DNA of 64,000 nucleotides from Chlorobium sp. (GTDB taxonomy: Bacteria; Bacteroidota; Chlorobiia; Chlorobiales; Chlorobiaceae), in NCBI GenBank assembly GCA_005862285.1, contig SZXW01000002.1, positions 62,001-126,000 of the forward strand, read 5' to 3'. Position 1 is the stretch's first letter. Every line of letters begins with the position of its first letter. Shown one piece after another: positions 11,585 to 19,450 of this stretch. The notes beneath the pieces are model-generated. The model was given only the letters and a program-made list of their open reading frames with translations. It was not told where the DNA came from and did not search any database. Both the position numbers and the translations under genes were made by a program.

Positions 11585-11760
11585 TTGCCGGTTTAGGCTG
11601 ATCTGTATAAACCGCCAGGCTTAAAGAGCTGTTAATGTTGTTATATTGTTTATAATTAATCAATTGACTGATCTGAGATTATGATTTTGAAGTTGTCTTA
11701 TACAGAAAGAAGCTTTCTGCTTCTCCTGAATTAGGCAGATCAGCCTAAACATTGTTGGGC
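11585..11760 (+). other. attI-like site, copy 1
   Basis: An AT-rich ~170 bp sequence repeated with roughly a dozen differences at 13891-14067. A perfect 15 bp inverted repeat lies at 11591-11605 and 11736-11750 (GTTTAGGCTGATCTG and its complement). The right end reads CCTAAAC-ATT-GTTGGGC, matching the layout of the attI1 simple site (CCTAAAAC-AAA-GTTAGGC) with the crossover G/TT at 11754. CTGATCTG also recurs near 11668, comparable to the extra integrase-binding repeats of attI. It begins immediately after the YfhO stop, with no integrase next to it, so it is a duplicate or displaced attI. Confidence 0.75.
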
Positions 11761-12866: not shown

Positions 12867-12934
12867 GCCCAACAACGCGCTCCAGCCGACTTGCTTTGCT
12901 ACGCTTCGCAAGCAGCTGAGCGCGACCGTTGAAC
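12867..12934 (+). other. attC site 1 (68 bp)
   Basis: The site starts with R'' GCCCAAC (12867-12873), the exact complement of the GTTGGGC that opens this cassette at 11754, and ends with R' GTTGAAC (12928-12934). Between them CGCGCTC-CAGC pairs with GCTG-AGCGCG and TTGCTT with AAGCAG around a short loop, giving the imperfect palindrome of an attC folded bottom strand with an unpaired base in the arm. Confidence 0.85.
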
Positions 12935-13785: not shown

Positions 13786-13907
13786 CAAGCAGGGCTTTTG
13801 CATAAGATGGATAAGAGTACCTCCAAAATGGTTTATACGCATGTTTTAAACAAGGCGGTCATGGAGTAAAAAGTCCGGTTGACCTGTTTCTTGCCGGTTT
13901 AGGCTGA
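13786..13907 (+). pseudogene. Integron integrase (intI) 3'-end relic, frameshifted
   Basis: Translating from 13786 gives QAGLLHKMDKSTSKMVYTHV then LNK, which aligns with the IntI C-terminal box (VQELLGHKDVSTTMIYTHVLN). The tyrosine at 13834-13836 is the catalytic nucleophile position. Loss of one base near 13855 breaks the frame; in the +1 frame the sequence resumes GHGVKSPVDLF, the normal IntI tail. Everything upstream of about 13780, including the other catalytic residues and the IntI-specific domain, is absent. The relic runs toward the attI copy on its right, so intI was on the same strand as the cassettes, unlike class 1 integrons. Confidence 0.8.
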
Positions 13908-14067
13908 TCTGTATAAACCGCCAGGCTTAAAGAGCTGTTAATATTGTTATGTTGTATATAATTAATCAATTGACTGATCTGAGATTATGATTTTGAAGTT
14001 GTCTTATACTTAAAGATGCTTTCTCTTTTTTTCTGAATTAGGCAGATCAGTCTAAACATTGTTAGAT
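13891..14067 (+). other. attI-like site, copy 2 (adjacent to intI relic)
   Basis: Near-identical to 11585-11760. The inverted arms are GTTTAGGCTGATCTG (13897-13911) and its complement with one mismatch (14043-14057). The right end is TCTAAAC-ATT-GTTAGAT, an attI-type simple site with the crossover at 14061. A TATAAT hexamer is kept in both copies near 13956, a possible -10 of a cassette promoter, but no convincing -35 is seen. The 3' end of the integrase relic overlaps its left edge, so this is likely the original attI. Confidence 0.8.
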
Positions 14068-14083
14068 TTACGAGGAGAACAGG

Positions 14084-14965
14084 GTGAGACGTGGAAGATA
14101 CTACCTCGGAAGAGTAATCAAGCTTGGTGAACTGAATCATCAAAAGCTTTTGGACGCCATTCGAGAACCAAAGGTTGTAAATTTTGGTCAGTTTCAATGG
14201 ACGTTTACCGATACCGTCGATGAAAGCGAATCTAGTGAGCGTTTTATATTTTCCCGATTGTCCAAGTATTCAAAAGAGGGTCACGTTACGGTGGTCGATA
14301 CTTCCACGAAATCCCAGAAGGATTCTGTTGCAGAAAATCTACTGATTGCTAGTGCGCCTTTTGTTTACCTGCCTGAGTTTTCTGGAATCGCCTATCTTCA
14401 TGTTTGGAATGGTATCGAAGAGGCTGTGTTTCGTAGGCGGTTTTCTGCGCTAGTTGAAGAAACTTACGATAATTTCTTTGTCACATGTGAAATTGATCCA
14501 ATATCCGATTACCAAGCTTTTGTAACAAAGCTAAAGGCTCTTGATAGCTTTTCTGAAATACGAGCGAAGGTTCATCCGCCGAACCCTTTATTCGGGGATT
14601 TATGGAAGGATCTCAACGAGTACATAAAATCAAGAAATGCAAGCGAAATTCAAGTTGCCGAAATATCAGATGCAAAGGATGGCCTTACAACAAAACTGGT
14701 AGAGTTGATTAAGGCGATTATTGAGGAAAGAATCGGGGAAATATCCAAGCCCGCGTCGTTGACTGATGCCGCCCTTCTTATGGCGGCAGATGGTTATGGT
14801 TCAGGGAAGGTAATAGGAATCTCTCGCTCTGAAACAGTAATTATTCGAACTTCTGACACGCAAAAAAGCTTTCTCTATGACAAGGAACCAGAAGTTGGCG
14901 AATTGGCGGCCGAAGCGAAGAAAAAGTTCAAAGCTATTTCAAATGAACGAGATATGCAGCATTGA
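14084..14965 (+). CDS. Cassette protein of unknown function (soluble, 293 aa)
   Basis: First gene of the cassette opening with GTTAGAT at 14061. It starts at GTG 14084 after GAGGAG. The 293-residue product has no signal peptide or membrane segment. It begins RRGRYYLGRVIKLG and contains a conserved-looking EIRAKVHPPNPLFGDLW block near residue 165 followed by a charged stretch. I do not recognise the family with confidence. Its stop overlaps the TTG start of the next gene by four bases, so the two are translated as a unit and were acquired together. AT-rich codon use differs from the backbone. Confidence 0.8.
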   Translation: MRRGRYYLGRVIKLGELNHQKLLDAIREPKVVNFGQFQWTFTDTVDESESSERFIFSRLSKYSKEGHVTVVDTSTKSQKDSVAENLLIASAPFVYLPEFSGIAYLHVWNGIEEAVFRRRFSALVEETYDNFFVTCEIDPISDYQAFVTKLKALDSFSEIRAKVHPPNPLFGDLWKDLNEYIKSRNASEIQVAEISDAKDGLTTKLVELIKAIIEERIGEISKPASLTDAALLMAADGYGSGKVIGISRSETVIIRTSDTQKSFLYDKEPEVGELAAEAKKKFKAISNERDMQH

Positions 14966-15438
14966 GAGAACTAATTGATTTTTTTAGAAGAGCCGTAGTA
15001 TCTCCAGAATTCCTGGTTGTAGTTCTCTCAGTTTGGGTTCTCTTTGCGGAGCCGCAATGGTTAGGAATCGTCACGAAGATTCTGGCAGGTGCTCCAGAGG
15101 GGGTTAAGTATATTTCGCTCGTGCCTGTTGCTGTCGCCGTATGGAGCATTCAACAGTCAAAGGCCATTTTGTTTCCCGCAGAAGATACCAAAGGCATACT
15201 TCAACAATGGCCTAAATTTCAAAAACTAAAAGAGCGAGTGATTATTGGCTTACTGTTTCAAGCCGTCTTTTGCGCGCTCGGGATAGGGGCTTGGATCATC
15301 TCTCCTAGCCTAAGCAACGGAACCGCAGTAATAGTCATGGGCATGTCAATTGCCGGAGCGTTGGTTGGCGCGTCTACTTTTTATCTTGCTGGAATAATGT
15401 CCGCTGAAATAACGAAACACCATGCAACAAAAATCTAA
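14962..15438 (+). CDS. Cassette membrane protein, four predicted helices
   Basis: A 158-residue protein starting at TTG 14962, coupled to the upstream gene. Hydrophobic segments lie at about residues 12-27, 45-61, 90-109 and 116-140, giving four likely membrane helices with short loops and a basic tail. No enzymatic motif is visible. Paired with a soluble partner in one cassette, it could be a membrane effector or pore controlled by that partner; this is inference from architecture only. Its TAA stop lies inside the attC R'' box, typical of cassette genes. Confidence 0.78.
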   Translation: MRELIDFFRRAVVSPEFLVVVLSVWVLFAEPQWLGIVTKILAGAPEGVKYISLVPVAVAVWSIQQSKAILFPAEDTKGILQQWPKFQKLKERVIIGLLFQAVFCALGIGAWIISPSLSNGTAVIVMGMSIAGALVGASTFYLAGIMSAEITKHHATKI

Positions 15439-15504
15439 CAATCACATCCAGCCGTTCCAAAAACCGCTGCGCGTTTTTCGGTCGGCTGATGTGTGGTGTT
15501 AGCA
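15433..15504 (+). other. attC site 2 (72 bp)
   Basis: R'' ATCTAAC (15433-15439) is the exact complement of the cassette-opening GTTAGAT at 14061. R' is GTTAGCA (15498-15504). Arms CACATC-CAGCCG and CGGTCGGCTGATGTG pair with one extrahelical base; the centre carries AAAAACCGCTGCGCGTTTTT, nearly shared with attC 6 and attC 7. Confidence 0.92.
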
Positions 15505-15523
15505 ACTACAAAAGGAGTAACAG

Positions 15524-16655: not shown

Positions 16656-16788
16656 AGTGAACGTGGCTGCGGATAGGGCATCCGCCTGCCTGCCCGCAGG
16701 TGGGCGAACAAGCGGCTGGATCAGACACTCTGCGTCGTCAAATAAATTTTCCGCCGAGGAGCGCTGCTCATCCGCGGCCACGTTAACC
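16656..16788 (+). other. attC site 5 (133 bp) of an ORF-less cassette
   Basis: R'' AGTGAAC (16656-16662) matches the complement of GTTCACC at 16636 in six of seven bases; R' is GTTAACC (16782-16788). Outer arms ACGTGGCTGCGGAT and ATCCGCGGCCACGT pair almost perfectly over a long variable terminal structure. The cassette from 16636 to 16782 is thus little more than its own attC; the frame across it (16627-16812) has no ribosome site and is not called. Confidence 0.7.
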
Positions 16789-16808
16789 CATAATAAACAG
16801 GAATCGCG

Positions 16809-17252
16809 ATGACTTCAAGCGGAAATCAAATATTTCTGTCTTACTCGGGAGAAGACTCTTTCGAAGCAAGTCTTCTTCAGTTTGCAGTGGAAAAGTTGCT
16901 AGAGGAAACAGGTGTTTCAGTTTGGACGTATGAGCGAGATCAGAACAAGGACGAAAAACAAATTTCAAAATGCCTAAAAGAAAAGATCAAAGAATCTAAG
17001 GCTACAATATTTTTAGCATCTCCAACGACCATGAATTCTGGTGCAACACAGTGGATGGAGCTAGCGTACTCAGATGCATTTAATGTGCCAACCTACATTC
17101 TTCTTCATCGAATGACATATCAAGATTTAAAAAAGCGGGAAAAAGGGGTTCCGCCATTAGTGTTGTCAAGCCAATGTAATAGCGCTATGGAGTGGAAGAA
17201 TATTGGCCTTAAAATTGGTAAAAATCTTGACAACCGGGGGAGCGAAGAATGA
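16809..17252 (+). CDS. TIR-domain protein A (cassette gene)
   Basis: A 147-residue protein that is essentially one TIR-like domain. The first strand and loop are IFLSYSGEDSF (residues 8-18); the ATIFLASP strand follows at 65-72; and ATQWMELAYSD places a glutamate at E84 where NAD-hydrolysing TIR enzymes have their catalytic residue. No sensor or membrane domain is fused. The stop overlaps the start of a second, different TIR gene by four bases, so both are made as a unit. TIR proteins of bacteria act in NAD depletion or cyclic-ADPR signalling in anti-phage systems; activity here is inferred. Confidence 0.85.
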   Translation: MTSSGNQIFLSYSGEDSFEASLLQFAVEKLLEETGVSVWTYERDQNKDEKQISKCLKEKIKESKATIFLASPTTMNSGATQWMELAYSDAFNVPTYILLHRMTYQDLKKREKGVPPLVLSSQCNSAMEWKNIGLKIGKNLDNRGSEE

Positions 17253-17611
17253 AAAACAAGATATTCATATCTTATGCCTACCAAGATAACAATGAGATCA
17301 ACAAGCTCAAATCCGCCTTAACGGAAAAAGGCATCATTTCTGATGAGGCCGATTTAATGGTAGACTCTCAAATGCCGTTGGTACCTGGGTCGAGCTTAAG
17401 AGGAGCTATTCGTAGCGCAATGGAGTCTGCAAGTACAGTTGTCGTTTACTGGACAAAAAATAGTGCATCATCAGACTTCGTGAACTATGAAATGGGTATG
17501 GCTGACGCGCTTGATAAGAAAGTGGTTGTAGTAACTCCGAAAGGCGAAAAACTGGACTTGCCGTCAAATATTGCTGATATTCAGGTATTAGAATTAGACA
17601 TTGAGGGCTAA
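17249..17611 (+). CDS. TIR-domain protein B (cassette gene)
   Basis: A 120-residue TIR_2-type protein. It opens KNKIFISYAYQDN, has a central GSSLRGAIRSAMESASTVVV strand-helix unit, and SSDFVNYEMGMAD with the putative catalytic glutamate at E81. It shares only the fold with the upstream TIR protein; the two are not a recent tandem duplication. It ends in GG with the TAA inside the attC R'' box. Two unfused TIR proteins in one cassette is an unusual pairing, since most known systems combine a TIR with a sensor protein. Confidence 0.87.
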   Translation: MKNKIFISYAYQDNNEINKLKSALTEKGIISDEADLMVDSQMPLVPGSSLRGAIRSAMESASTVVVYWTKNSASSDFVNYEMGMADALDKKVVVVTPKGEKLDLPSNIADIQVLELDIEG

Positions 17612-17679
17612 CAAAAAAATCCAGCCGACCCCAAAAACACTGGCGCGTTTTTTTTGTCGGCTGATTTTAAGCGTTGGGC
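17606..17679 (+). other. attC site 6 (74 bp)
   Basis: R'' GGCTAAC (17606-17612) matches the complement of the cassette start GTTAACC (16782) with one mismatch; R' is GTTGGGC (17673-17679). Arms ATCCAGCCGAC and GTCGGCTGAT pair with one extra base, and the core has CAAAAAC...GCGTTTTT, closely like attC 2. Confidence 0.92.
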
Positions 17680-17728: not shown

Positions 17729-19369
17729 ATGCTAACGATGGACGAGGCGTTGGATTTATTGCGCGATGGTGAGCGTAGACAGTGGCTCATTGCAGACTGG
17801 AGTTGGCATATAAGTGGTCGAGGAAACGGCGGCGTCTATGTTGGACTCGTTCGTGGAAATACAGCGGAAACCTGCATAGATGATGCAAGCTGGACCGTCA
17901 GTAAGGGGGATGGGTTGACCGGCTTCAGCATGTGGTGGGAAGACGGAGAAGAACGTACCGAATATTCTTACGCCCCTGTATCGGGCGAGTCATGGCCTCT
18001 TGTTATTCATCGAGATTTTCACGGAATGGAGCAAGATCAATACGATTTGCTGGAGGAGTTTCGTTTATTTCACAACCTGTGGCATGACCGGAGAACTGAT
18101 AACTACTTCAAAATTCTAGAAGATGGTACAAAGCAAAAGGTCGTCTTCCGGGATAATTCTGGCGCGATGCTCGTGGATACAGCGGAACTTAGAAAATTTT
18201 GTGCGGCACGGGGGCTAATGATTCTCCTTCAAGTGGATTCGGTGCAGTTTTTTGAAACGCCCCAAGAGGAAATCTCTGAAGAAATAGTGGATTCCGGACT
18301 TTGTGCCAGTCGGCATGTTACTAACGATTCCTTTTCTGGTAAACCTGCTTTTGGTCGACTCCTTGGAAAGCGGTTGATCGATGCGTTACCTATAGAGAGA
18401 TGCGGAATCTGGCCATATGAGGGCGATAAGTCATACGAATTATTCATCATCGGTGCCTTGGATGATGGCTCTGATGCACTTTTTTCATCCGATCCCGATC
18501 ACCTCGCAGACTATTTCGGGAAAAACTCAGACAACCCTAACTACCTCACCCCTGTGCATTTTCGAAAGGATGTGCTGAAGAAATATTTGGAAAAGCCAAG
18601 CCTTTATTCGGTAGAGGATGGATATCTACGCTGCGGGAGTATGTGGGGGCTGCGTATGGATAACGATCACGCAGATAAGGTAGTGGTATTCTTGGGGGAT
18701 TTGGGGCGAGACCTGCCAGAAACTGAACAAAGGTACTGGCGCTCCTTTAATATCCGACCTGATGGAGGACTGAGCGAGACGTGTTTTAAACGGTCTTTTC
18801 TGGCGGAGTTCACCGATCCGAATAGCCCTGAGCTAGCTATCAAATTCGAGCGCCGTAAGCTTTTGAAGAAATGGCATGCCGCGTTTGGTTTTGATTTGTA
18901 TGTGGAATTCCATAAAAACGATTCCGGTGTGCTCTCCGATGTCCGTGCGCCCATTTCCGACGAATGGACCGAATTCGACCGATGCACTATTGCGGCAACT
19001 AAAGTGTTTATTGACTATCTGAACGAGTCGCAACTAGCAAAATTGGCCGCAACAGAAATCGCGAAAATGAAAGAGGCAGCACCTGAAAAGCCAATCAGGG
19101 GCATCGACAAGTTACAGGCATGGCTACATCAAAATGGAGACGAAAAATCTCCAGTGGGTCTGGTCTCCTCACTACGACTATTGCAAGAGTTAAGGTCAAA
19201 ATCCGCCGCGCATCGTAAGAGCAGCGCGTTGACGGCATTATTGAAGGACAAAGGGCTGGATGACGAATCGCCGAGGGAAGTGTATCGCCAGCTGATATTG
19301 GAGCCTATGCTCGATTATTGCCGACAGCTTTCAGGGTTTGCTGAAACCCATCTTCAAGGCGTGAAGTAA
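17729..19369 (+). CDS. Large cassette protein of unknown function (546 aa)
   Basis: A 546-residue protein starting at ATG 17729 (a second ATG three codons on) after GGAGGACACAG. It is soluble, with no signal peptide or helix long enough for a membrane. The N-terminal third is tryptophan-rich (WLIADWSWHISG, FSMWWEDGEE). The C-terminal part is helical and ends in a region (HRKSSALTALLKDKG) resembling helical bundles that count as AbiEi/HEPN-like only by eye. I do not recognise a family. At over 1.6 kb it is long for a cassette gene. It fills the cassette opening at GTTGGGC 17673. Confidence 0.8.
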   Translation: MLTMDEALDLLRDGERRQWLIADWSWHISGRGNGGVYVGLVRGNTAETCIDDASWTVSKGDGLTGFSMWWEDGEERTEYSYAPVSGESWPLVIHRDFHGMEQDQYDLLEEFRLFHNLWHDRRTDNYFKILEDGTKQKVVFRDNSGAMLVDTAELRKFCAARGLMILLQVDSVQFFETPQEEISEEIVDSGLCASRHVTNDSFSGKPAFGRLLGKRLIDALPIERCGIWPYEGDKSYELFIIGALDDGSDALFSSDPDHLADYFGKNSDNPNYLTPVHFRKDVLKKYLEKPSLYSVEDGYLRCGSMWGLRMDNDHADKVVVFLGDLGRDLPETEQRYWRSFNIRPDGGLSETCFKRSFLAEFTDPNSPELAIKFERRKLLKKWHAAFGFDLYVEFHKNDSGVLSDVRAPISDEWTEFDRCTIAATKVFIDYLNESQLAKLAATEIAKMKEAAPEKPIRGIDKLQAWLHQNGDEKSPVGLVSSLRLLQELRSKSAAHRKSSALTALLKDKGLDDESPREVYRQLILEPMLDYCRQLSGFAETHLQGVK

Positions 19370-19374
19370 GCGGT

Positions 19375-19450
19375 GCCCAACAGAACAAATTAACTCGGAC
19401 CGCAAAAACCGCTGCGCGTTTTTTACGCCCGGTTATTTGCGGCGTAGGAG
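19375..19450 (+). other. attC site 7 (damaged right end)
   Basis: R'' GCCCAAC (19375-19381) is the exact complement of GTTGGGC at 17673. The centre again carries AAAAACCGCTGCGCGTTTTT. The right box should read GTT-like but is GCGTAGGAG here, so the R' side is degenerate. It marks the right end of the recognisable array. Confidence 0.75.

Follow-up and report, generated by a model that had tools for sequence, protein, structure and literature searches.

Two overlapping genes on the forward strand of the window (the whole stretch of 64,000 nucleotides analysed here) encode the small proteins TIR1 and TIR2 (Table 1), and a ribosome-binding-like GGGGGAG lies upstream of the second gene, ending at about position 17241. 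The ORF coordinates and the TIR profiles given below both agree with the preliminary description of this DNA, which had reported two different stand-alone TIR proteins whose genes overlap by four bases. The host genome comprises 2.6 Mb in 15 contigs, and bchN/bchB/bchL-like genes are located at 52-56 kb of the window, by which we read the host as probably a green sulfur bacterium (Chlorobiaceae-like).

Table 1. Coordinates of the TIR gene pair, its inferred cassette and attC sites (positions of the window, except for the last two lines, which refer to locus L018)
Feature	Position	Strand	Basis
TIR1 ORF, 147 aa, ATG start	16809..17252	+	ORF list
TIR2 ORF, 120 aa, ATG start	17249..17611	+	ORF list
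ATGA, 4-nt overlap of TIR1 stop and TIR2 start	17249..17252	+	sequence
attC closing the TIR cassette, bottom-strand hairpin (R'' GGCTAAC, R' GTTGGGC)	17606..17679	+	folding
Probable attC ending the preceding cassette, long hairpin (R'' GTGAAC, imperfect; R' GTTAACC)	~16657..16788	+	folding
Inferred cassette: 26-nt leader, TIR1, TIR2, attC	~16783..17673	+	two attC sites and ORF list
attC of the upstream aldo/keto reductase cassette	12867..12934	+	attC search
attC-like repeat D2 (ATCTAAC ... GTTAGCA) of an upstream cassette	15433..15509	+	repeat search
attC site of L018	5909-5971 (approximate, by eye)		
attC site of L018	6822-6890		

The attC sites were recognized by an R'' box (RYYYAAC), an R' box (GTTRRRY), their location at the 3' end and a foldable bottom strand, a combination found at the end of the window cassette and at the second of the two L018 sites. 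The site closing the TIR cassette, which is common to both genes as had been proposed, has the TIR2 stop codon inside its R'' box, and its bottom strand folds with -16.0 kcal/mol (shuffle mean -6.5, sd 2.2). The likely attC of the preceding cassette is less canonical (-34.4 kcal/mol; shuffle mean -22.0, sd 3.1). No gene other than TIR1 and TIR2 was present on the forward strand of the cassette delimited in this way, and the promoter scan returned nothing beyond chance. Repeat D2 and the attC of the TIR cassette have inner sequence in common, and the array genes near the pair encode an aldo/keto reductase, an NYN protein and several orphans; given these further attC sites and cassette genes, the TIR cassette belongs to an array. 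Because no integron integrase above the TIGR02249 cut-off was found in the genome, this array is best called integrase-less (CALIN-like). At G000:C1:912996-913139 a remnant-like stretch of 48 aa matches the C-terminal part of integron integrases and is possibly a pseudogene of the missing integrase. In a groundwater bacterium (L018, 5909-6890) the same pair stands alone exactly between two attC sites and is followed by a deaminase gene with an attC-like end of its own. The pair has thus been captured as a cassette in two unrelated bacteria, which speaks for a transferable unit that consists of these two genes and nothing else.

Other parts of the array were noted separately. At positions 14084-15438 a further overlapping two-gene cassette candidate encodes a protein of 293 aa and a membrane-like protein of 158 aa (4-nt overlap), and directly 3' of the TIR cassette there is an orphan cassette protein of 546 aa (17729-19369) with a degenerate attC near 19398; neither the two proteins of the former nor the latter had a Pfam or PADLOC match. 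A block of about 170 nt is duplicated at 11585-11756 and 13891-14063 (92-96% identical, with internal inverted repeats ending in TTGTTGGGC / TTGTTAGAT), and the two copies may represent att-like sites or the ends of mobile elements in the array.

Both proteins were assigned to the TIR family using the Pfam model TIR_2 (cut-off 28 bits), with 33.1 bits and an E-value of 9e-8 for TIR1 and 46.3 bits and 7e-12 for TIR2. The ThsB_TIR profile was likewise above its cut-off (9e-7 and 3e-9, respectively), and the match to Nuc_deoxyrib_tr was below its own. The two proteins are only distantly related to each other as TIRs (14% identity, hhalign E 1e-8). Their AlphaFold models have a TIR-type beta/alpha fold (TIR1: pLDDT 83, pTM 0.79; TIR2: pLDDT 82.6, pTM 0.76), so the TIR fold on which the preliminary description depended is retained in the structure prediction of both. 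Foldseek matched both models to TIR structures (E about 1e-4, TMq 0.57-0.73), with the TIRs of RPP1, SPARTA, SpbK, ThsB and MyD88 intermixed with the N-glycosidases DNPH1, MilB and NDT; SpbK and the SPARTA TIR were matches of both models and ThsB was among those of TIR2.

The glutamates first named as candidate catalytic residues, E84 of TIR1 and E81 of TIR2, are both the sixth residue of helix C in the models, and alignment together with helix position gives the Phe/Glu pairs F9/E84 and F6/E81. All 11 of 11 members of the TIR1 family have E84, and among the TIR2 relatives long enough to include this position only the decayed second gene of L019 lacks E81; as candidate catalytic residues the two glutamates are thus conserved. 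TIR NADases have a catalytic Glu on helix C with a Phe, Tyr or Ala opposite (PMC11312562); TIR1 and TIR2 both have residues of this kind and are candidate NADases. Besides F9 and E84 the key residues of TIR1 include H100 and C123, with TQWMELAYxDAF as signature, and the motif DFVNYE of TIR2 corresponds to the canonical WVNYE type. In the hhalign comparison the helix Trp and the Glu of TIR1 are two residues closer together than those of TIR2 and of the canonical WxxxE, and the TIR1 pocket may therefore be altered.

The scan for relatives was performed with TIR1 as the only query against 84,980 species genomes and retrieved ten relatives with 48-63% identity, from Betaproteobacteria (including Thauera, Ideonella and Piscinibacter), Acetobacteraceae (two), Methylococcaceae, Latescibacterota, Binatia and an unclassified groundwater bacterium. 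An eleventh (L031), from the same phylum as L012 and near-identical to the locus there, was found after the pairing of TIR1 and TIR2 had been noted and also has a TIR2-like gene. Homologues are thus few (12 loci including the window), and wider sampling with TIR1, which covered about 1,400 additional genomes, yielded a single new case, from which it follows that the family is rare. In the 11-member alignment of TIR1 29 positions are invariant, among them F9, S11, Y12, W39, D44, Q45, W82, M83, E84, H100, PPL115-117, C123 and W129. TIR1 members formed a single clade (100/99) with a very long stem in a tree that contained one out-of-frame row (L035) and from which only strong clades were used. 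The TIR1 profile had no match in the PDB at an E-value of 0.01, and the TIR2 profile matched bacterial TIRs and Toll-like receptors. As judged from sequence, TIR1 is a rare, very divergent and separate TIR subfamily.

The best PADLOC matches of both proteins are ThsB models, which one of 11 TIR1 members reached at 1e-5 and which TIR2 matched partially. The pair was not named as a system by PADLOC, and its earlier designation as a candidate undescribed system stands within the reach of the tools used, as no known annotated system was returned. TIR2 also matched Csm3/RAMP models in PADLOC and NCBIfam over a short segment near GSSLRGAIR, a resemblance that we dismissed as fortuitous.

A TIR2-like gene directly follows TIR1 in all 11 relatives (nine complete, one cut by a contig end, one decayed), so that the search for co-occurrence in other genomes, suggested at the outset, gave a strongly positive result. 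Among the first ten relatives TIR2 is full in eight, cut in L016 and decayed in L019. With the upstream start chosen for L018, the intergenic distance between the two genes lies between -11 and +12 nt. The pair spans at least four bacterial phyla. Since TIR2 was absent from the query its presence is an independent test of the pairing, and because generic TIR_2 domains occur in 97 of the 238 genomes sampled from the phylum, mostly with one to a few per genome, the adjacency in every relative is not due to chance. The distance matrices of TIR1 and TIR2 are weakly positively correlated (Mantel r 0.34, p 0.03) and L011, L012 and L015 group together in the trees of both families, which is consistent with co-inheritance; a single origin of TIR2 was recovered in only 62% of bootstrap trees. 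No relatives were found on viral contigs using TIR1, TIR2, one TIR2 relative or the TIR1 alignment, nor in phages using one TIR1 relative as query. The plasmid scan with TIR1 was likewise negative, and that with TIR2 retrieved distant TIRs only, with no TIR1 in the four neighbourhoods inspected.

Another TIR-TIR pair was observed in a member of the Bacteroidota (L008:1420-2264, reverse strand), between peroxiredoxin genes. Like the window pair it consists of two bare TIR proteins, of 143 and 138 aa, whose genes overlap by 4 nt, but it is outside the TIR1 family and did not group with TIR2 in the tree; TIR-TIR operons may recur with other TIR subfamilies.

The genomic context of the relatives contains no common third gene, the downstream neighbours varying by locus. 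A ThsA gene of either the SIR2-STALD or the TM-macro type is absent from the operon, the cassette consisting of two genes only, and no Argonaute, STING or cyclase was found among the neighbours in the window or the scanned neighbours of the relatives. At the genome level, STALD-type ThsA was absent from 11 genomes in a search that had no positive control and in which most hosts were incomplete MAGs, and ThsA_Macro was present in one of 12 genomes, on a contig other than that of the TIR pair. Other defence-type genes occur within about 6 kb at six of ten loci (a raw count with no control set): SLATT and a TGT/glycosylase/QueC/TIR cluster in L011, McrBC in L012, a DRT8-like reverse transcriptase in L013, further TIRs in L015, GmrSD/HEC-05 in L018 and DUF4062 in L019. 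The cluster in L011 (1211-5424), which also occurs in L035 (a Rhizobium plasmid), combines an HhH glycosylase, a QueC-like protein and a ThsB-like TIR, in L011 additionally with TGT-like and SLATT proteins, and looks like a separate defence cluster.

The two genes differ in constraint. A comparison of L012 with the closely related L031 gives a dN/dS of 0.12 for TIR1 and 0.31 for TIR2, the amino acid divergence of TIR2 being about 3.5 times that of TIR1, and mean pairwise identity in the family is 52% for TIR1 and 34% for TIR2. The residues F6, Ser8, Tyr80 and E81 are nevertheless kept in nearly all TIR2 members. The second gene of L019 (6422-7270) has decayed from TIR2 (hhalign link 76%) and carries an additional stretch of about 160 residues that matches no Pfam family; it has a Thr at the Glu position, and the TIR1 of L019 keeps E84. 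The constraint on TIR1 and the loss of Glu in L019 favour TIR1 as the putative enzyme and TIR2 as sensor or activator, on the basis of one decayed TIR2 and one dN/dS comparison; both may be enzymes, because the Glu of TIR2 is also kept in nearly all members.

The nearest characterized relative is the ThsB1/ThsB2 pair of staphylococcal Thoeris, two different TIRs that are encoded together and both required there. After binding of ThsB1 to the capsid protein, ThsB2 is recruited by ThsB1, and the ThsA-activating signal depends on residues E81 and F6 of ThsB2 (PMC12578639, PMC11312562). The statement that known TIR systems pair a TIR with a non-TIR sensor was therefore incomplete, although the staphylococcal system has thsA as its third gene, the product of which contains a STALD domain and which the window cassette lacks. 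ThsB2 and TIR2 have the same active-site residues at the same positions (F6/E81), but ThsB1 is far larger (catalytic-site numbering to E318) than the proteins described here, and TIR1 is a separate divergent subfamily; as the ThsA gene is absent from the operon we did not file the pair as Thoeris. SpbK of Bacillus subtilis, which acts alone as TIR protein and NADase effector with the active site between TIR domains (PMC12847820), resembles the role proposed below in that a TIR consumes NAD+ with no ThsA, but it is one protein whose N-terminal domain reads the phage portal, in place of two bare TIR domains. The TIR of SPARTA (TIR-APAZ/pAgo) is among the best structural matches of TIR1 and TIR2, but this system requires an Argonaute partner and neither protein has APAZ. 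With the anti-phage cassettes of Vibrio integrons the pair has in common the streamlining of a one- or two-gene system to cassette size; anti-phage systems account for about 10% of the integron cassettes of V. cholerae, and the review of these systems mentions no TIR or Thoeris (PMC12409362).

The pair is probably a compact virus-defence system acting on the NAD+ of the cell. We tentatively propose, with slightly less than even confidence, that the two TIR genes form a defence module that is sufficient in itself, acts without ThsA and is mobile as an integron cassette. In its favour are the TIR fold and Glu positions of both proteins, the constant pairing with no common third gene, the rarity of ThsA in these genomes, the two-gene cassettes of the window and L018, the unequal constraint on the two genes, the loss of Glu in the second gene of L019, the defence-type genes nearby, and the precedents of SpbK and the V. 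cholerae cassettes. TIR1 and TIR2 would assemble on infection, with the faster-evolving TIR2, the Glu of which has been lost in L019, as sensor or activator, and the strongly constrained TIR1 with its invariant E84 as an NAD+-consuming hydrolase or cyclase; the loss of NAD+ would then abort the infection, and no ThsA effector would be needed. The active site of TIRs forms between two TIR protomers, so that the contact of TIR1 with TIR2 could itself complete it.

The same data could be explained by a division of labour like that of ThsB1 and ThsB2, with one TIR sensing the phage and the other making an ADP-ribose signal for an effector encoded elsewhere, the cassette being a Thoeris-type front half. 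The requirement for two different TIRs in staphylococci (PMC12578639, PMC11312562), the F6/E81 positions that TIR2 shares with ThsB2, the ThsB models as best PADLOC matches of both proteins and the match of TIR2 to ThsB structures all agree with it. We consider this doubtful, as ThsA was found in none (STALD, the search having no positive control) of 11 and one (ThsA_Macro) of 12 genomes, the loci have no common neighbour, a single TIR1 member of 11 reaches the ThsB model at 1e-5, and an effectorless sensor half is unlikely to spread alone as a cassette. Toxin-antitoxin integron cassettes are usually laid out as small overlapping genes. The pair has this layout, and it could be an addiction cassette in which a toxic NADase TIR is restrained by a catalytically idle one and perhaps released by phage; the faster evolution of TIR2 and its ability to lose the Glu would fit. 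To our knowledge there is no TIR antitoxin, and the retention of F6, Ser8, Tyr80 and E81 in nearly all TIR2 members would be needless for a pure inhibitor, which makes this explanation improbable.

The remaining alternatives concern the chemistry. TIR1 and TIR2 would be non-catalytic scaffolds with signalling or non-immune roles if the conserved Glu were structural, and the short Trp-E84 spacing of TIR1 might indicate a different pocket; the (near-)invariance of F9, E84, H100 and C123 across 42-57% identity and the matching helix position render this quite improbable. A pair of nucleotide N-glycosidases of the DNPH1/MilB/NDT kind, acting on free (e.g., modified phage) nucleotides and not on NAD+, is suggested by the best Foldseek matches of TIR2 (CMP N-glycosidases and DNPH1), by the matches of TIR1 to nucleoside deoxyribosyltransferases and by the same fold and helix Glu in these enzymes. 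It is very improbable, given that TIR_2 and ThsB_TIR are above and Nuc_deoxyrib_tr below the cut-off, that FISYA and FLSYS in the first strand, followed by Asp, are a TIR box, and that TM-scores to TIRs (SPARTA, MyD88, SpbK) are equal or higher.

Returning to the self-sufficient module, its more specific form, in which TIR1 and TIR2 are an obligate heteromeric enzyme whose NAD+ site is completed only at their interface on infection, is conceivable but unlikely. It would amount to a ThsA-free TIR immunity of two proteins, based on a TIR subfamily not described before and mobilized by integrons. Should the defence module be confirmed, two bare TIR domains would suffice as a complete defence unit, and with 267 residues in total it would rank with the smallest known immune systems of the TIR kind. 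The pair would then also allow a direct test for obligate heteromers among bacterial TIR enzymes, a mode in which some TIR pairs of plants and animals work. The presence of this TIR module in two unrelated cassette arrays adds to the candidates for integron-borne defence.
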